Virus record (IMG/VR): IMGVR_UViG_3300028388_004553
Coordinates: 1-23,812 of that record
Direction: 5' to 3' (one strand)
Origin: a virus
DNA length: 23,812 bases
Part shown: positions 277-9,093 of the stretch, piece after piece
Layout: each line of letters starts with the position of its first letter
How positions within the stretch are numbered: the first letter of the stretch is position 1
Translations under genes and position numbers: made by a program
Notes under the pieces: generated by a model
Told to the model about the DNA's origin: nothing
Databases searched by the model: none
The model's input: the letters and a program-made list of their open reading frames with translations, nothing else

Positions 277-741
277 TCATTTCTTATCCTCCTTTTCATG
301 TTTTATGCTGGCAGCGGCGGCCGCCGCTGCCGCTGTTATTTTCAGGTTTGTTAGCGTCATATTAATTAACTCCTTATTCCCGCTCTGTAGTATTTTTTGC
401 AACAGTTGTACACCCTCCCCCAGTTGCGTTGCGTCCTCGCCGTTTATATTTATATAGTTCCCATCCCCGCTGCTGGCAACGGCTATATGCCCGTTGGCAA
501 TAGATGTATTGCCCCACCTCTCCCCGGTTCCGGTTATCATGCTCCTCTCGCCAGTCAGTAGCCAGTGCATATCCACTGATTGGTTTACTGCCATTTCTAT
601 AATCAATGGTAACAGAGTACCCCTCTTTTTTCTATTGCTAAAGTCTTTATCAGATATACCCAGCTCTTCCGCAATTTTTTTTTGAGTTTTAACCCCTCGA
701 AATTCTTTAAATCTGTGTATTATTTTTTCTAAATCTATCAT
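277..741 (-). CDS. CI/Mu-type phage repressor (helix-turn-helix)
   Basis: This 154-aa leftward protein should be the lysogeny repressor that silences the rightward early promoter. The first 70 or so residues form a CI-repressor-like helix-turn-helix (KKIAEELGISDKDFSNRKKR, then a conserved MHWLLTGE-type segment), the pattern of the Bac_CI_repr family. A glycine/asparagine-rich linker follows, then a helical tail (VQLLQKILQSGNKELI). There is no S24/LexA-like peptidase domain, so classical RecA-stimulated self-cleavage is not expected. Nine alanines in a row lie near the C terminus, followed by a charged end. It is the only convincing minus-strand gene in the window and is divergent from the Ner-like gene 80 bp away. 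No strong ribosome site precedes the ATG at 741. Confidence 0.85.
   Translation of the reverse strand: MIDLEKIIHRFKEFRGVKTQKKIAEELGISDKDFSNRKKRGTLLPLIIEMAVNQSVDMHWLLTGERSMITGTGERWGNTSIANGHIAVASSGDGNYININGEDATQLGEGVQLLQKILQSGNKELINMTLTNLKITAAAAAAAASIKHEKEDKK
310..331. repeat. 22-bp perfect GC-rich palindrome in the repressor gene
   Basis: The stretch 310-331 is its own reverse complement, centred on GGCC, and contains a GCGGCCGC core (317-324). It encodes part of the nine-alanine run of the repressor. In RNA it would form an 11-bp, nearly all-GC foldback, unlike the AT-rich surroundings. Confidence 0.85.
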
Positions 742-757
742 AAAGTGTATTTTTTTC

Positions 758-805
758 TTGACAGGTATCTACGATTTAGTTTATTGTGTCCGTAACACTG
801 ACACA
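758..805 (+). promoter_or_regulatory. Rightward early promoter with operator-like dyad
   Basis: TTGACA (758-763) is a perfect -35 box, followed after 16 nt by TTTATT (780-785, 4 of 6 matches to a -10 box). Just downstream lies an inverted repeat, TGTGTC (785-790) and GACACA (800-805), that overlaps the expected start of transcription. The position between divergent repressor and Ner-like genes fits the early lytic promoter and its operator. Confidence 0.5.
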
Positions 806-820
806 CGGGGTAAATGATAA

Positions 821-1042
821 ATGAAATTACAAAATATCACAAGCGAAAAATTGAGAGCGATACTTCTGCTGAATGGACTGAACTACAGCGTCCTTGCCGA
901 AAGGCACGGGTTTAACAAGGATGCTGTACACAAAGCCGTTGTCAGATATGTTGGCAAAAAATGTCCCCCGGTACCAAGGGGACAGAAGACAAAAGCTATT
1001 CTGAACATTCTTGAACAATACTGCGCCGATTTCAACGGCTGA
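821..1042 (+). CDS. Small Ner/Cro-like DNA-binding protein
   Basis: A 73-aa protein read divergently from the repressor. Residues 10-45 (LNGLNYSVLAERHGFNKDAVHKAV) look like a helix-turn-helix of the Mu Ner type, in which a short basic protein turns down the repressor and early promoters. The C-terminal part (KTKAILNILEQYC) is helical. Position as the first rightward gene after the repressor and the small size match ner in Mu-like phages. The assignment rests on the motif and synteny, because overall similarity to Mu Ner is low. A 16-bp palindrome lies 6 bp after its stop codon. Confidence 0.65.
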   Translation: MKLQNITSEKLRAILLLNGLNYSVLAERHGFNKDAVHKAVVRYVGKKCPPVPRGQKTKAILNILEQYCADFNG

Positions 1043-1048
1043 TTAAAA

Positions 1049-1064
1049 GTCTCCAATTGGAGAC
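1049..1064. promoter_or_regulatory. 16-bp palindrome GTCTCCAATTGGAGAC (copy 1)
   Basis: A perfect palindrome directly after the Ner-like gene, repeated exactly at 4123-4138. Its position makes it a candidate operator for an early-region regulator. The function is not shown by the sequence. Confidence 0.6.
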
Positions 1065-1081
1065 ACAAATGTTCTTTGACA

Positions 1082-1191
1082 ATTTGGTCGTGAGTCGCAA
1101 GGCATAAGGGCGACAGAGAGTAAAGCCAAAAACCTACATGACCGAATATTCGTCCTGCGAACCCGCCAAGTCTGGTTAAGACCGGCTTGGC
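1082..1191 (+). promoter_or_regulatory. Structured 5' leader of the antirepressor gene
   Basis: Positions 1082-1092 (containing GGTCGTG) pair with 1137-1147 (containing CATGACC) as an 11-bp helix with two G-U pairs. This encloses a smaller hairpin GTCGC (1094-1098)/GCGAC (1110-1114). A second hairpin, GCCAAG (1165-1170)/CTTGGC (1186-1191) with an inner GGT/ACC, follows immediately before the terminator at 1194. Such nested pairing in a 213-nt leader suggests a cis-acting RNA that controls read-through. I do not recognise a known riboswitch family in it. Confidence 0.5.
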
Positions 1192-1193
1192 AA

Positions 1194-1240
1194 GCCGATT
1201 TTGGTTCCCAGGGGAGATGAAAACAAATCGGCATTTTTTT
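1194..1240 (+). terminator. Intrinsic terminator before the antirepressor
   Basis: GCCGATTT (1194-1201) pairs perfectly with AAATCGGC (1225-1232), followed by A and seven Ts (1234-1240). It lies between the early promoter and the ribosome site of the next gene (AAGGAGA, 1244-1250). It therefore either ends the ner transcript or acts as a regulated attenuator for the antirepressor. Confidence 0.7.
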
Positions 1241-1255
1241 CATAAGGAGAAGAAC

Positions 1256-1834
1256 ATGAAGAACTTTTTCTACAATGACCACCCGGTCAGGCTGGTGACC
1301 GACACCAGCGGCGTTCCCTGGTGGGTCGCCGCGGATGTATGTGCGATTCTGGAAATTGCAAATGTAAGCCAAGCTGTTGCCGCTTTGGATGATGATGAAA
1401 AGGGTATATGTAAAATATATACCCATGGCGGTCCGCAAGAAATGATCACGGTCAATGAGTCTGGTCTCTACACCCTGATTCTGAGGAGCAGCAAACCAGA
1501 GGCAAAGCCGTTCCGGCGGTGGATTACCCATGAGGTACTTCCGAGCATCAGAAAGACCGGAGCGTATCAGGCCAAGCCAAAGCCAAAGCCAAAGCGCGGA
1601 AGCAAAGCCCGGACAATCCGGTTTCCGGACGGGGAAGTGATCACGTATGAGCCGGTTCCGTTCCGGATGTACATAGAACTCAATTCTCTCAAAGAGATGA
1701 TGCAAGCCGGAGTCCCCCGTGTCGTAATGGCATATGAGATGGGGATAAGCATGAGTACGCTGAAGCGCTGGATCGCCAAACTGACAGAGCCGGAGCCTTG
1801 CAAGCCCGGCTGGCTCGGTCTCAGTAACAACTAA
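1256..1834 (+). CDS. BRO-N domain phage antirepressor
   Basis: This 192-aa protein has an N-terminal BRO (Bro-N) domain over about residues 3-105. It shows the family signatures PWWVAADVCAILEI, VNESGLYTLILRS, FRRWITHEVLPSIRKTG and DDDEKG. BRO proteins of phages usually act as antirepressors or DNA-binding modulators that favour lytic growth. A hinge with repeated KP (KPKPKPK, coded by a 6-bp repeat at 1570-1596) joins it to a C-terminal region ending in a helix-turn-helix-like segment (VVMAYEMGISMSTLKRWIA). The ATG at 1256 is chosen because AAGGAGA stands 5 nt upstream; the reading frame is open further upstream but lies inside the leader and terminator. Expression is probably governed by that leader. 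Confidence 0.85.
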   Translation: MKNFFYNDHPVRLVTDTSGVPWWVAADVCAILEIANVSQAVAALDDDEKGICKIYTHGGPQEMITVNESGLYTLILRSSKPEAKPFRRWITHEVLPSIRKTGAYQAKPKPKPKRGSKARTIRFPDGEVITYEPVPFRMYIELNSLKEMMQAGVPRVVMAYEMGISMSTLKRWIAKLTEPEPCKPGWLGLSNN

Positions 1835-3329: not shown

Positions 3330-3713
3330 ATGGTTTTCATAGATCACGAGGGAAGAAGGATCCGTGTTTTCGAGGGTCTCGGCGGGGGAACTTGGATGTC
3401 AGGACGGAAAACGAAAAGTGGTGGGAATCGTAGGATAAAAAGCCCTTATCTGCCTGTCCGGGACAATTTTGATCAGGCTGCGGATGATTTGAAAGCGTAT
3501 GCGCAATGGAGAGGGTGGGAGCTATTGGAGAAGGAACGCTATCCTGATTGCAAAGAGTACGCAGCGTGTCTTTCGAGGTACGCGTATGGGGACAGGCAAT
3601 TCACCTGTCAGGGTTGCGAACGATATGAGCAGGATTGCTATGGCATGTTCGCGGAGGATGACATGACAGGGATCTATTCGCTGCTGGTCGCGCTCTTCGT
3701 CCCTCGGAGATGA
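3330..3713 (+). CDS. Unknown early protein with cysteine cluster
   Basis: A 127-aa protein that I do not recognise. The N-terminal half (FIDHEGRRIRVFEGLGGGTW, then SPYLPVRDNFDQAADDLKAYAQWRGWELLE) is a small alpha/beta unit whose pattern is repeated in the next small ORF. The C-terminal half has cysteines (CKEYAAC, CQGCERYEQDCYG) able to bind a metal. The ATG at 3330 follows a G-rich ribosome site; a GTG sits one codon upstream. The start codon falls just after a small hairpin. An ORF in another frame at 3209-3433 overlaps it and is judged spurious. Confidence 0.6.
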   Translation: MVFIDHEGRRIRVFEGLGGGTWMSGRKTKSGGNRRIKSPYLPVRDNFDQAADDLKAYAQWRGWELLEKERYPDCKEYAACLSRYAYGDRQFTCQGCERYEQDCYGMFAEDDMTGIYSLLVALFVPRR

Positions 3714-3750
3714 AATCAAGGTTTTCGAGGGGCTCGGATGAGGAGTATGG

Positions 3751-3930
3751 ATGTCAGGCAGGCGGAACGGACTGGCATTTCACAGAGTCCGGATCCCCTC
3801 GCTTCCGCTTGGGAATACACAAGAGGAAGCCGAAGCGGATTTGGCTATCTATGCTAAGAAAAAAGGATGGAAGGATGAACACACAAAAATATGTCCCCCC
3901 CCTGAGCCACGCTCAGAGAAAACGGCTTGA
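3751..3930 (+). CDS. Truncated paralogue of the preceding gene
   Basis: This 59-aa ORF is similar to the N-terminal half of the preceding protein: the pattern MSGR, then LPLGNTQEEAEADLAIYAKKKGW, matches MSGRK, then LPVRDNFDQAADDLKAYAQWRGW. Upstream in the same frame the sequence still reads IKVFEGLG, but a TGA stop at 3739-3741 stands where the sister gene has glycine. TGAGGAG at 3739-3745 is a good ribosome site for the ATG at 3751, so a short protein may still be made. Its 3' end overlaps the next gene in another frame by 56 bp. It is either a minimal gene or a remnant of a tandem duplication. Confidence 0.5.
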   Translation: MSGRRNGLAFHRVRIPSLPLGNTQEEAEADLAIYAKKKGWKDEHTKICPPPEPRSEKTA

Positions 3931-5065
3931 AGATCTTGAAGGCATTGTCCGTGAGAATCTCAGAGCATTTTTCGAAGTCGGCAAGGCACTCATGGAGATC
4001 AGAGGTGCCCAGTTGTACAGGGAGAAATACGAACGCTTTGACGATTATTGCAAAGAAGAATGGGGACTTGGCAAGGCACATGCTTATCGTCTGATTGAGT
4101 CTGCACAGATTGTCTCCAATTTGTCTCCAATTGGAGACATCCCGAAAAACGAGAATCAAATCAGACCTTTGACCCGGATTAAGGACACAAAAAAGCAAAT
4201 CGATATATGGAAGGAGGTCAACAAACAGGCAGCAGAAAAAAACATCCCGGTAACCGGGAGATTGGTCGAGGATGCGGTAAAAGCGGTCATCGGTGGGAAG
4301 CGTGCCAAACCCGCACCCAAACCCAAACCGACACCTGGACAGGCGCACCCCGCGCCTGTCCAGGTGCTTCCCCCGGAGCCGCCGGATGAGCCGGAGCCGG
4401 ATGACATAGATGATACTTTCGGAATCGGCGCGGATGCGGAGAATGCGGAGAATGCGGACGAGGTCATACAGCCGCCGATCCCGGAGTTGGTTGTCATTCC
4501 CAAAAAGGATGTTCCGGATGTAACCACCTGGTCAGGCCCCCCACCGCATGGCCTGCCGGATGTCTATGAAACATCGCTGACAGCGATCCTGGCAGAGATA
4601 GCTAAGAAACAACTCACACCGGAGCAGAAGGAGTTTTTGGGATATCAGATTTATTGTCTGAAAATTCTGCTGTCAGAGGCTGAGACAACATCCGCGGGAA
4701 AAAAGAAAGAGAGCTTTGTCTCCCCGCAGACGATTGCGGATTTGTATCATTCATGCCTTCCGGAGCTTGAATCCGTTCGGATTCTTTCAGATGAGATTTG
4801 CCGGAATGCAATCAGCCGCCAGAAAGAATCAAAGGAACGGAGGACATTGGCGTTCTGGGAGGAGTTTTTCGCAAGCGTGAAAAACTCCGCATTCCTGACA
4901 GGGCAGAATAATCGGGGATGGAGAGCCAACCTGCGTTGGCTCCTCAAGAAACAGAACTTTGAAAAAGTTCTGAACAATGAGTACGGAGGACACAATGACG
5001 ATAGTAGCGGAGAGAACCAATATGACAAACAGCTTGATGATGCTCTCGCAAAATTCGGCGGATAA
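3875..5065 (+). CDS. Replisome-organizer-like early protein
   Basis: A 396-aa protein in three parts. Residues 1-130 are helical, with a segment typical of phage and plasmid proteins (VGKALMEIRGAQLYREKYERFDDYCKEEWG, AYRLIESAQIV, RPLTRIKD). Residues 140-230 are a proline- and acid-rich linker. The C-terminal 70 residues contain FWEEFFASVKNSAFLTG, GWRANLRWLL and NFEKVLNNEY, a pattern found at the end of phage replication proteins that work with a helicase loader. It overlaps the DnaC-like gene by about 70 bp, which supports a shared role in loading helicase. The ATG at 3875 is preferred to the upstream ATG at 3710, whose extra 55 codons would run across the paralogous ORF in the wrong frame. 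Confidence 0.6.
   Translation: MNTQKYVPPLSHAQRKRLEDLEGIVRENLRAFFEVGKALMEIRGAQLYREKYERFDDYCKEEWGLGKAHAYRLIESAQIVSNLSPIGDIPKNENQIRPLTRIKDTKKQIDIWKEVNKQAAEKNIPVTGRLVEDAVKAVIGGKRAKPAPKPKPTPGQAHPAPVQVLPPEPPDEPEPDDIDDTFGIGADAENAENADEVIQPPIPELVVIPKKDVPDVTTWSGPPPHGLPDVYETSLTAILAEIAKKQLTPEQKEFLGYQIYCLKILLSEAETTSAGKKKESFVSPQTIADLYHSCLPELESVRILSDEICRNAISRQKESKERRTLAFWEEFFASVKNSAFLTGQNNRGWRANLRWLLKKQNFEKVLNNEYGGHNDDSSGENQYDKQLDDALAKFGG
4112..4138. repeat. 16-bp palindrome (copy 2) plus half-site
   Basis: GTCTCCAATTGGAGAC at 4123-4138 is identical to 1049-1064. A further half-site GTCTCCAAT lies at 4112-4120. All lie inside the replisome-organizer-like gene and encode part of its NLSPIGD segment. Confidence 0.85.
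4332..4366. repeat. Perfect 15-bp hairpin in a coding linker
   Basis: CACCTGGACAGGCGC (4332-4346) and GCGCCTGTCCAGGTG (4352-4366) are exact reverse complements with a 5-nt loop. It falls in the proline-rich linker of the replisome-organizer-like protein, a place that tolerates insertions. Confidence 0.9.
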
Positions 5066-5789
5066 AACGCCGAATCCGTGTAACCATTGCGGGCTGCCGA
5101 AACTGCCGCATCATTACACTCTGTTAGGAGAACAGAGAGTCATTTATTTTCCGCAATGTAATTGCGAGAAGGAACTCAGAGAGCAGGAGAAAAAAGCCAA
5201 AGTTCTTTCATACAGAAAGAAGATGTTAAGGCAGGCCGGCTTCGATCTCCCCCTTTACAAGGGGATGACACTTGAAAGCTGGGAAAAGAACGGATGCGAA
5301 GCCCTGTATGATCGTTTCGTGGGCAGTCTTTATGGCTTTAGGAACTGGTGTTTCCTTTTTGGGGACTACGGACTCGGGAAAACACACATGGCAGTAGCCA
5401 TGGCCCGATCCGTTACTCTCTGTTTTGGCATGAGGCCGTGTATTCTCCGCTGGGCAGAATACTGTTCGAAAACCCAGGCATCCTGGTCTGACAAAGAGAT
5501 CAGACCGGATTGGATGGCTGGGGGGGATGCGGATATCCTTGTCATAGATGATTTGGACAAACGCGCACTAACACGATGGTCAATGGAAAAACTCTATGAA
5601 GTCATTGATTACCGTTATGTGTATGACAAGCCCCTGATTTTGACTGCCAACAGGAGTCTCCGTCAGTTGAGACTCCTCTGGAAAGGGGAGTTGAAAGACG
5701 CCGGGGCTGCCGTGTTATCACGGATAGCAGCGAAGATATGTGAGGCACGGGAATTCAGAGGAATCGACTACAGGCTCAGAGACATATGA
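4995..5789 (+). CDS. DnaC/IstB-type AAA+ ATPase (putative helicase loader)
   Basis: This 264-aa protein opens with a cysteine cluster (CNHCG, then FPQCNCEKE) that may bind zinc, as in many phage DnaC-like proteins. It continues with an AAA+ core: Walker A GDYGLGKTH, Walker B ILVIDDLDK, and a sensor-like strand LILTANRS followed by LSRIAAKICE. DnaC proteins load the replicative helicase, while IstB proteins of this fold assist IS21 transposases. Overlap with the replisome-organizer-like gene favours helicase loading; the transposase immediately downstream leaves the IstB-like role open. The ATG at 4995 is chosen for GGAGG 5 nt upstream; an ATG at 4977 is in frame. Confidence 0.8.
   Translation: MTIVAERTNMTNSLMMLSQNSADKTPNPCNHCGLPKLPHHYTLLGEQRVIYFPQCNCEKELREQEKKAKVLSYRKKMLRQAGFDLPLYKGMTLESWEKNGCEALYDRFVGSLYGFRNWCFLFGDYGLGKTHMAVAMARSVTLCFGMRPCILRWAEYCSKTQASWSDKEIRPDWMAGGDADILVIDDLDKRALTRWSMEKLYEVIDYRYVYDKPLILTANRSLRQLRLLWKGELKDAGAAVLSRIAAKICEAREFRGIDYRLRDI
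5652..5677. repeat. 9-bp intragenic hairpin with GTCTC/GAGAC arms
   Basis: AGGAGTCTC (5652-5660) and GAGACTCCT (5669-5677) pair perfectly around an 8-nt loop near the end of the ATPase gene. The arms share GTCTC/GAGAC with the 16-bp palindromes, which may be chance. Confidence 0.5.
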
Positions 5790-5802
5790 GCAAGAGGGCG
5801 TT

Positions 5803-7746
5803 ATGGCATGGCTTACGCTGGAAACGGAAAGCACGGATGACAATTCGGAGAAGGAAAAGGAGCCTGCTTATCGCCCCGAGTGTCCGATGCTGTCAGTTCG
5901 TCAGATATCGGAACTGACAGGGCTGACAAAGCAGGCTATCATAGCCCGTGCGAAATCCGAAGCATGGGAATCGGAAGAGCGGATATGCCAAGGCGGAAAA
6001 CGCAGTGTCTATCGCCTGGACAGCATATCCGGCGACATAAGGGATATGTACTATCAGACAAAAATATGGGCGGATACAGGCGAGAGTGTTTCCGAGTATG
6101 CCCAAAGGAACAGGATATTCACGGATATGAGGACACTCAGAGAATCCGCCGACAAAATCGACTGCTACAGGCGGCTGGAGTCCGCGCCAAAGGGGACGCG
6201 GACAAACGTCGCCAGAGGATTGGCGAAAAAATATGAAGTTACGCTGGCAACCGTATGGCGATGGCGGAAAGCCATCGCGAATCTCAAAGAAAAGCCTTGC
6301 TCTGACGTGCTGTTGAAAGGCAGCCGTGTCAGGCTTCCGCACACACGGAAGTTTGACACAGAGGCAGTCAGATACGGCATTTCTGTCTATGTCGCGCATC
6401 AGCAGAATGGCATCCGTCCCGCATATGAGAAAATGCGGGAGAAGGCATATGAGGAAGGCTGGAGAATCGGGGATTACAGCAATTTCACACGCCTCATAAA
6501 GAAACTTCCCCGGGAGATTCTCACAATTGGGGAGAAAGGATTTGACGGATTCAGAAATTCGGATGCATTCAAGTTGCGCCGGGATTGGCTGCAAGTGCCG
6601 GTTTATACTGTTTTGTGCGGCGATCAGAAAGTCAATGATTACTACACTATCGACCTACACACCGGGCGCGTCTATGCCATGAACTGGTATATTTTCATGG
6701 ATTGTACATCGACATTTTGGTCCGGGGTGTATCCGGCTTTCGGCCCGTACAATCGTTATACATTTGGGGCAGCGCTCCGGGAGGCGTGCAGGATTGCCAT
6801 CCCGGATGAGATATATGTGGATCAGGGCGGCCCAGAGAACAGCGGCTACGCAGGGCAGATACAAAAACGGCTGTCCCAACTCGGACAGCTTGTCAGGCTT
6901 TCGGATTATGATGAATTCGCGACAATCTATGGCGGATTTTCCGATGTCGGCAAACATGTCGCCAAAACAGGGAATCCGTCTGCAAAGCCTATCGAAAACC
7001 AGATGAACATTTTCGAACGGGAACTCAGGCGGCGGTTTGTCGCCGGATTCCGCAAGAAAGACGCGGATTCATGGATAAACAAGCAACGGAATGCGGAGCT
7101 AAGGAAACTCCGCATGTCAGGGCAGCTACTCTCTACAGAGGAATGGATGGAGATAATCCTTGACGTTGTGGAATCCCACAACACGAATTTCGGAAGTCGG
7201 CAGGGGCATGAAGGGAAATTCTCCCCTGCCCATGTGCTTTTATCCGGATTACAAGGACGTTTCACAGTGCCGGATGATGTCCTGGAACAGTTGTTTATGC
7301 CCGTCTTTGAACGGGTATTGCATCAGCGGGAGGTTCGCGTGAAAGTTGCAAAGGATGACATAAGGCGGTTCTTTGTCAAGGATCCTTTTGTCCGCAATGG
7401 CACAAAAGTGCGGGTCGCAGTTGATCCGTTTGACATTGAAAAGCCGGCGATCATCTCCACGCTCGAAGATGAAATCATCTGTCATGCGCCAGCGGTTCCG
7501 TTTCTGAATCCGGCATCAGACGAGGCAGAATTAAAGCGCCAACAGAGATTCCAGAAACAATACAACACCTTTTGGAGAGAGGCATACAGGGGCATGATAG
7601 ATAGGCAGATCGGAGAATCCGTGAGGAGAGTCGGGGTTCCGAATGCCGCTTCGGAAAGTTCCGGCCATGCCGCGGATGTGATTGATTTGGATCGCGGGCA
7701 AAAACATGCCGCGTCAACATTGGAAAAAATATGGCAGGATGCATAG
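5803..7746 (+). CDS. MuA-family DDE transposase
   Basis: A 647-aa transposase that would join phage ends to target DNA for integration and replicative transposition. The N terminus holds a Mu-type winged helix (MLSVRQISELTGLTKQAIIARAKSEAWE, then GGKRSVYRL). A second helix-turn-helix follows (LAKKYEVTLATVWRWRKAI). The catalytic triad can be read as D274 (VLCGDQKVN), D340 (YVDQGG) and E398 (KPIENQMN); spacings of 66 and 58 residues agree closely with D269, D336 and E392 of Mu A. The length is close to Mu A (663 aa). A beta-barrel region and a basic C terminus that could contact MuB follow. The ATG at 5803 has AGAGGG just upstream and lies 13 bp after the DnaC-like stop. Confidence 0.95.
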   Translation: MAWLTLETESTDDNSEKEKEPAYRPECPMLSVRQISELTGLTKQAIIARAKSEAWESEERICQGGKRSVYRLDSISGDIRDMYYQTKIWADTGESVSEYAQRNRIFTDMRTLRESADKIDCYRRLESAPKGTRTNVARGLAKKYEVTLATVWRWRKAIANLKEKPCSDVLLKGSRVRLPHTRKFDTEAVRYGISVYVAHQQNGIRPAYEKMREKAYEEGWRIGDYSNFTRLIKKLPREILTIGEKGFDGFRNSDAFKLRRDWLQVPVYTVLCGDQKVNDYYTIDLHTGRVYAMNWYIFMDCTSTFWSGVYPAFGPYNRYTFGAALREACRIAIPDEIYVDQGGPENSGYAGQIQKRLSQLGQLVRLSDYDEFATIYGGFSDVGKHVAKTGNPSAKPIENQMNIFERELRRRFVAGFRKKDADSWINKQRNAELRKLRMSGQLLSTEEWMEIILDVVESHNTNFGSRQGHEGKFSPAHVLLSGLQGRFTVPDDVLEQLFMPVFERVLHQREVRVKVAKDDIRRFFVKDPFVRNGTKVRVAVDPFDIEKPAIISTLEDEIICHAPAVPFLNPASDEAELKRQQRFQKQYNTFWREAYRGMIDRQIGESVRRVGVPNAASESSGHAADVIDLDRGQKHAASTLEKIWQDA

Positions 7747-7782: not shown

Positions 7783-7834
7783 ACAGAAGGAAAACACAAA
7801 AAGAAACAAAATACAGATAAGGATGAATAACACA

Positions 7835-8716
7835 ATGGAAAAAAATTTGCAAGAGAAATTTAAGGAGATCGGCATGACGGCCGCGGCTATTGCGGAGCGT
7901 AGCGGTCTGAGCAAAACAACCGTCTCTCTCGTGATTGCCGATAAATATAACGGTGCCCAGGAGACCGTGAAAAAGGTGGAATCCGTGATCAATGAGCTAT
8001 GGGAAGAGCGGGCAGAACCGGAAACCCGAACCTCGCCGTTGTTCCGACTGACCCCCGGTCAGAAGCAGGCCGGAGGAGTGATCGAACTCCTCTGGCGGAA
8101 GAAGAAATTCGGAATGGTGGTGGGGCCGTCCGGGGGCGGCAAGACAACGCTTGTGAGGGAAGTCATGCAAAAACACCCCTCGATTCGCTCTTATACGGCG
8201 ACAGCTGGCATATCCATGTCAGGGATGCTGTCTGATATTTGCGGAGTTTTCGAAATTCAGACAAGCGGAACAATTGACCAACGGCGCAATCGGCTTATTG
8301 GGCTGGCACCGGGGCAGTTTCTCATCATAGATGAGGCAGACAATCTGACAAGAGGCCGGGAAGTCCGGCATGTTCTCAGAATGATAGAGGTCTTTAGAAA
8401 AATGTATGATGCCGGCACCGGCATCTGTCTTGTCGGTCTCCCCAGTCTGTACGAGGACGTCTGCAAAGCCGGCGAGACGTATGTTTTTAGCCGCATCCGT
8501 TATATAAACCGCTTTATCCCCCCTGACAAGGCGTTTTTGCGCGCTGTCTGGAAACAAAAGACAAACGGACTGAAGATAACAGAGGCGCAGACAGAGAGTA
8601 TTTTGTCTGCGGCTCCGAGGTCCGGCTTTTTCAGATACATAGAGGAGCTTGCCGACACAGCAATGGAGCTCCAAGATATTGACGCTGCCTTGGCAGTGTC
8701 TTTTATAGCGAAATAA
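7835..8716 (+). CDS. MuB-family target-selection ATPase
   Basis: A 293-aa AAA+ protein of the MuB type. The first 60 residues form a helix-turn-helix (MTAAAIAERSGLSKTTVSLVIADKYNG), as in Mu B. The ATPase core shows Walker A GPSGGGKTTL and Walker B FLIIDEADNL, with ICLVGLPSLYE and a sensor region after it. MuB coats target DNA, delivers it to the transposase and mediates target immunity. The C terminus (RSGFFRYIEELADTAMEL) matches the helical end of the family. It lies 88 bp after the transposase gene. The ATG at 7835 is chosen because AAGGA lies at a workable distance; the in-frame ATG at 7823 would add four residues. Confidence 0.92.
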   Translation: MEKNLQEKFKEIGMTAAAIAERSGLSKTTVSLVIADKYNGAQETVKKVESVINELWEERAEPETRTSPLFRLTPGQKQAGGVIELLWRKKKFGMVVGPSGGGKTTLVREVMQKHPSIRSYTATAGISMSGMLSDICGVFEIQTSGTIDQRRNRLIGLAPGQFLIIDEADNLTRGREVRHVLRMIEVFRKMYDAGTGICLVGLPSLYEDVCKAGETYVFSRIRYINRFIPPDKAFLRAVWKQKTNGLKITEAQTESILSAAPRSGFFRYIEELADTAMELQDIDAALAVSFIAK

Positions 8717-8930: not shown

Positions 8931-9093
8931 GCGAGGCGAAGTAACGTAATGTCACAGCACCGTCATGCGTTGGCAAAGTTATCCATTGCTGTGTGAAGGC
9001 GAGGCGAAGTAACGTAATGGCAGAGCACCGTCATGCGTTGGCAAAGTTATCCATTGCTGTGTGAAGGCGAGGCGAAGTAACGTAATGGCAGAG
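8931..9093. repeat. 68-bp tandem repeat, 2.4 copies
   Basis: Units start at 8931, 8999 and 9067 with GCGAGGCGAAGTAACGTAAT. The first two are complete and differ by two bases; the third stops at 9093. Each full unit contains TTATCCATT, 7 of 9 matches to the DnaA box TTATCCACA, and a 15-codon ORF with its own ATG and TGA. The period is not a multiple of three, so the array does not encode a repetitive protein. Confidence 0.9.

Follow-up and report, generated by a model that had tools for sequence, protein, structure and literature searches.

The window, which is the whole stretch of DNA that we analyzed (23,812 nucleotides), belongs to a viral record of 33,262 bases. By its gene content, the phage is a transposable one that encodes a CI-type repressor, MuA, MuB, GemA, and Mu-type head genes. 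We found no close relative in the collections searched with its 73-amino-acid early open reading frame, MuA, or capsid protein. The genes and elements at the locus are as follows:

277-741, minus strand: CI-type repressor gene with a Phage_CI_repr HTH (Pfam PF07022, E 4.7e-9; PHROG transcriptional repressor)
758-787, plus strand: promoter-like site TTGACA-18-TATTGT (consensus scan, 10/12 matches)
821-1042, plus strand: first early gene, 73 amino acids, in a Ner-like position (weak likeness to the BcepMu gp16 family)
1049-1064: 16-bp perfect palindrome GTCTCCAATTGGAGAC, predicted operator of the 3710-5065 protein
1069-1107, plus strand: possible leader peptide MFFDNLVVSRKA of 12 codons with GGAG upstream (weak)
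1082-1092/1137-1147, plus strand: long-range helix of 11 pairs (pair probabilities 0.88-1.0)
1165-1191, plus strand: strong hairpin GCCAAGTCTGGTTAAGACCGGCTTGGC (-15.0 kcal/mol)
1194-1240, plus strand: terminator-like stem-loop (arms 1194-1201/1225-1232), followed by an A and T7 at 1234-1240
1244-1249, plus strand: Shine-Dalgarno sequence AAGGAG of the BRO gene, from the sequence, with the ATG at 1256
1256-1834, plus strand: Bro-N antirepressor-type gene, BRO (Pfam Bro-N, E 3.5e-23; PHROG 130 anti-repressor Ant, E 7e-48)
3710-5065, plus strand: gene for the predicted palindrome-binding protein, with a ParB/Noc-like HTH close to the N terminus and a replication-initiator (O/DnaD-like) C-terminal region (PHROG 5810/345/10469)
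4112-4138: half copy GTCTCCAATTT of the palindrome at 4112 and full copy at 4123-4138, in linker codons of 3710-5065
4977-5789, plus strand: DnaC/IstB-like helicase loader gene (Pfam PF01695, E 2.7e-10; PHROG 50)
5797-7746, plus strand: MuA-type transposase gene (PHROG 310, E 3e-46; Pfam HTH_Tnp_Mu_2)
7787-8716, plus strand: MuB-type ATPase gene (AAA_22, E 1.3e-12; tblastn to Mu/D108 B)

We presume 758-787, the only plus-strand promoter-like match between 290 and 2066 in the consensus scan, to be the early promoter, divergent from the repressor gene. The first early gene matched NCBIfam TIGR04111 at E 8e-4, which is below the family cut-off, and PHROG 8503 at E 2e-4. The Bro-N domain (PF02498) of BRO scored 82.5 bits against a gathering cut-off of 25.6, making the product antirepressor-type by domain, with inactivation of the repressor as a putative function. 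Within 3710-5789, MuA is directly preceded by genes for an O/DnaD-like initiator and a DnaC-like loader, which is an unusual mix of replication modules for a transposable phage. Three further sequence features were observed. Just left of the repressor gene, GAAGTGACAAAT occurs in three direct copies (230-271) that are possible transposase-binding sites at the left end of the phage. A 22-bp perfect palindrome, GGCAGCGGCGGCCGCCGCTGCC at 310-331, codes for a poly-Ala stretch near the repressor C terminus. Just past the MuB gene, a 68-bp tandem repeat spans 8931-9093 (2.4 copies, 97% match).

The gap upstream of BRO is 213 nt long (1043-1255), as the sequence-only reading had stated. The whole leader (1043-1258) folded far better than chance, with a z of -4.80 and none of 200 shuffles as good, and ranked 3/154 among folding windows of the record. 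Segment 1076-1258 alone, with the first 33 nt removed, gave a z of only -2.19, indicating that the excess comes partly from the palindrome at 1049-1064 and from a predicted closing helix (1069-1077/1249-1257) that covers the BRO start codon and was absent from the sequence-only reading. The RNA structures listed in that reading are present where it placed them, yet not all of them exceed chance, so that its description of the leader was confirmed in part.

The palindrome at 1049-1064, which had also been missed, starts 6 nt past the stop codon of the first early gene. An exact second copy, with 0.04 expected, lies at 4123-4138 inside the ParB/Noc-like HTH gene. Searching viral contigs for exact matches to it, we found 25 stretches, many of them in homologues of 3710-5065 and at the same linker. 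One homologue (L052) carries the exact palindrome at the linker in a different reading frame, which argues that the palindrome is kept as DNA rather than as a protein motif. In the library searched, no paper was found for the palindrome sequence.

We then analyzed homologues that were fetched by protein alone, regardless of palindromes, plus 8 plasmids, giving 77 nonduplicate sequences including that of this phage. Linker codons contained a strong inverted repeat in 64 of the 77 sequences versus 2 of 77 in an N-terminal control stretch of the same genes. The core of the family palindrome is often CAATTG or CCATGG, and the arms vary between homologues, tracking residues of the recognition helix. 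An Arg in the helix went with C at half-site position -2 in 36/36 cases, and a Gln at the same place went with A (17 cases) or G (6 cases). A Tyr one residue earlier in the helix went with T at -5 (36/36), and an Arg four residues earlier went with G at -4 (19/19). Covariation z values against shuffles, uncorrected for relatedness, were 25.6 for Arg/Gln with -2, 20.3 for Tyr with -5, and 13.7 for Arg with -4. The helix of this phage has Ala, Tyr, and Arg at the three columns, a combination that homologues pair with C at -4, T at -5, and C at -2, and both palindrome copies of this phage carry these same three bases. The palindrome is very probably the own DNA site of the 3710-5065 protein, a prediction made by computation only, and the simplest reading of the in-gene palindromes across the family is that each would be the cognate site of the HTH protein encoded around it. 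As the linker codons would thus contain the site that their own product reads, protein specificity and site would change together. Some homologue palindromes have asymmetric centers (AACT, AAAT, and AAATT), so that on symmetry alone an RNA hairpin would be compatible. The pairing of Arg-G and Gln-A with the recognition helix favors a duplex DNA site instead. In ParB and Noc, respectively, R173 and the Gln at that place have been reported to make Arg-G and Gln-A contacts (PMC7383237), and the residue position in our family may be an equivalent one. We found no description of a family with such embedded sites in the literature searched, although one may exist elsewhere.

The AlphaFold2 model of the 3710-5065 protein had a pLDDT of 89.7. 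VIA-align comparisons of its HTH model gave Z scores of 9.1 for Raf1, 9.0 for Noc, 8.9 for ParB, and 7.0 for SopB-DNA over about 100 residues, where helical folds need caution, and Foldseek matches of the HTH model were not significant. The modeling is suggestive of, but does not prove, a ParB/Noc-like HTH. For the ParB CTPase (ParBc) domain, we detected no Pfam family in the 3710-5065 protein and none at a meaningful score in the HTH region of its homologues.

A general arrangement that would include the copy at 1049-1064 was not supported. Within about 12 kb, the in-gene cognate palindrome recurred in 3 of 49 homologous loci versus 1.4 expected by control, and we dropped recurrence elsewhere as a rule for homologous loci. 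Since most homologues have the site only in the gene, the second copy before the antirepressor gene is particular to this phage. Another phage contig of 44.7 kb (IMGVR_UViG_3300042934_000692) carries the exact palindrome four times: one copy falls within the HTH gene, two closely precede gene starts (one of these genes is predicted to be small-terminase-like), and the last forms part of a terminator-like stem lying between convergent genes. Such a layout is reminiscent of dispersed operators or of parS sites.

Alternatively, 1049-1064 could be a second site for replication, partition, or transposition that serves genome handling near the left end of the phage, similar to the lambda O iterons or to parS, with the proximity of BRO being incidental. 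The other copy of the palindrome lies in the linker of a gene with an O/DnaD-like C terminus that is followed by a DnaC-like gene, much as the lambda O iterons (ori) lie within gene O (PMC7466680). Furthermore, homologues of the 3710-5065 protein occur on cyanobacterial and Streptomyces plasmids, and a MuA-type transposase (PHROG 310) was present in 19 of the 22 records with a family member that were checked. The likeness to lambda O and ori, with an origin function that is putative here, consists of an initiator-type protein, sites in the middle of its own gene, and a helicase loader gene next to it. Unlike the lambda case, the sites here are near-perfect palindromes, usually in one to three copies, the HTH is ParB-like, the gene family is also found beside MuA in transposable phages, and an extra copy stands before an antirepressor gene. 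One in-gene site suffices in most homologues, however, and it is precisely the gap separating the first and second early genes that holds the extra copy. We consider incidental placement of such a site rather unlikely as the explanation of 1049-1064, but a replication or transposition role of the palindrome would be compatible with the other readings and does not exclude them.

Downstream in the leader, the terminator-like element at 1194-1240 had been described as a perfect terminator with seven Ts. The T7 and the coordinates are correct, and the element is not random: an 8-bp perfect stem with a loop of at most 25 nt and at least six Ts occurred once on the plus strand of the 33-kb record and in none of 40 shuffles, and the 5' part of the stem paired with a probability of about 0.87. 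The description as perfect was overstated, as the stem is 8 bp and half A-T, the loop is 23 nt, one A precedes the T run, and the energy is about -10 kcal/mol, all indicating a weak, long-looped element. Its position directly before the ribosome site was verified, with the T run ending 3 nt upstream of the Shine-Dalgarno sequence. The consensus scan found no separate plus-strand promoter-like site for BRO between 787 and 2066. Because of this lack and the 3-nt distance between the T run and the Shine-Dalgarno sequence, BRO expression probably needs read-through, and transcripts that carry the BRO ribosome site have very probably passed the terminator. The proposal that BRO is gated by read-through thus holds insofar as polymerase heading into BRO must cross a terminator-like element, but regulation of that read-through was not supported. 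In the Mu-like phage Fc02, RNA-Seq revealed an early transcript burst from pE that starts at the ner-like gene and dwindles distally (PMC9936078).

These features could also reflect a plain terminator at 1194-1240 that ends a short first-early-gene transcript or a small RNA at constant low read-through, with no switch and with a palindrome unrelated to BRO control. Among the premature terminators covered by a survey (PMC2965389), some at 5' positions serve to end small RNAs and others were exapted from the 3' ends of prophages. The comparisons among relatives also fit such an element, as do a long helix and a leader peptide that are no better than chance. A comparable terminator between repressor and transposase was absent in 19 related loci, and inspection by eye of 19 Bro-N loci for a terminator-like leader found none alike. 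Searches for homologous leaders were likewise negative: querying 50,697 phage records with 1043-1256 by blastn yielded chance hits only, the 16-mer GACAGAGAGTAAAGCC had six hits in IMG/VR that were all unrelated, and a single-leader covariance model run over 121 related sources (about 1.2 Mb) recovered only itself. A separate observation was made at one locus (L011), where another Bro-N gene has a consensus-like promoter upstream, together with a branched, compact RNA fold at about 3860-3983 that lacks a terminator T run. Against a plain terminator are the fold of the whole leader, which is far from chance, and the adjacency of the terminator to the Shine-Dalgarno sequence; so placed, a plain terminator would nearly silence the antirepressor gene and perhaps the transposase operon. 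We regard this explanation as unlikely.

The sequence-only reading had interpreted the leader as an attenuator. In such an arrangement, alternative folds (1165-1191 versus 1183-1197), driven by a ribosome on the open reading frame at 1069-1107 or by a ligand, would choose between termination and read-through. The hairpin at 1165-1191 was confirmed and is unusual, with the best hairpin of the leader equaled in 2 of 150 shuffles. The alternative hairpin at 1183-1197 (-6.2 kcal/mol) overlaps it, making the two mutually exclusive, and if formed would sequester the terminator's 5' arm, but its probability in the ensemble is about 0. The 11-pair long-range helix is present, two of its pairs being G-U, but is at chance level, as a helix of 11 pairs with a span of up to 70 was found in 29 of 300 shuffles. 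It does not enclose a hairpin of note as had been claimed, since the minimum-energy fold has only weak 3-bp hairpins inside. The leader open reading frame, which the sequence-only reading did not mention, overlaps the first helix, but an open reading frame of this kind with GGAG occurred in 265 of 2,000 shuffles (13%), and we dropped the leader peptide as evidence for a sensor. Consistent with the statement that no known riboswitch is recognizable, our Rfam search of the leader, C4 included, found no family at the gathering score and only two chance hits up to an E of 5. Given that no homologous leader was found and that the early regions of the 19 related phages are without such a terminator, an RNA switch is unsupported. 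With the helix and the peptide at chance level and no homologues to show conserved pairing, the attenuator remains improbable despite the mutually exclusive hairpins and the strong overall fold. On its own, the attenuator part would be ordinary.

The antirepressors of P1/P7 and P22 are controlled by antisense RNAs, C4 and sar, respectively. The leader here is similar in having possible RNA-level control at an antirepressor gene and dissimilar in its lack of an Rfam match and in a complementarity to the BRO start of only 8 nt. A block of BRO translation by pairing of 1069-1077 with 1249-1257 is highly improbable, because the exact 8-nt complementarity over the start codon, even with the closing helix predicted there, is of a kind that we estimate to occur about once by chance in 400 nt, and C4 was among the families without a match.

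Our favored interpretation, held at somewhat less than even confidence, combines a partial terminator resembling lambda tR1 after the first early gene with an operator for the ParB-like protein of the phage. The gap would be the intercistronic control region of the early operon, in which the intrinsic terminator at 1194-1240 would be partial, so that only read-through transcription would reach the genes for the antirepressor-type protein and the replication, MuA, and MuB proteins. The operator at 1049-1064 would be bound by the ParB/Noc-like HTH protein encoded later in the same operon (3710-5065), and once bound, the protein would act as a roadblock or a silencer that reduces or times the transcription entering the leader. 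The elements themselves, their departure from chance, the exact second palindrome copy, and the covariation with the recognition helix are established by computation. We infer that termination is partial, that 1049-1064 is bound in vivo, and that antirepressor expression is lowered upon binding. The weak stem and long loop of 1194-1240 count against this interpretation, as do the absence of the terminator from the 19 related loci and the usual restriction of the palindrome to the gene.

Lambda tR1 lies between cro and cII in the PR operon and is Rho-dependent, being overcome by N at nut sites. The element in this phage is similar in being a terminator after the first short early gene and upstream of regulator and replication genes, and it differs in having a stem-loop with a T run and no recognizable N or nut. 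For the operator, the comparison is with ParB, Noc, SopB, and KorB and their sites (parS, NBS, sopC, and OB, respectively). The nearest predicted fold of the phage HTH is Noc/ParB, tied with Raf1, and the shared features of the sites are a palindrome of 16-18 bp and specificity set by a few helix residues through Arg-G and Gln-A (PMC7383237). The phage protein differs in lacking a Pfam CTPase domain, in having its site in its own linker codons, and in its replication-like C-terminal part. Two ParB relatives are described as able to silence genes in their vicinity, KorB on RK2 (PMC11790492) and SopB close to sopC (cited in PMC5002424). For the 3710-5065 protein, in which no ParB CTPase domain was found, a sliding mechanism of silencing is doubtful.

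A terminator and an operator are each of a known kind, and their combination here is new. We tentatively propose a wider arrangement, in which a ParB/Noc-like family of transposable phages and plasmids carries the cognate site in its own gene and, in this phage, a second copy at the start of a terminator-gated leader would make both the antirepressor switch and the transposition operon depend on how much of the protein is present. As far as the sequence indicates, the antirepressor may be under feedback by a DNA-binding protein of the phage, instead of or besides an RNA switch. If this is true, the lysis-lysogeny switch would be tied to the abundance of the ParB-like protein through one short site, and genome maintenance would be linked to induction; the literature examined describes no such link for Mu. 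The family-wide residue-base pairing amounts to a readable specificity code with dozens of natural protein-site pairs and could be used to predict binding sites from sequence.
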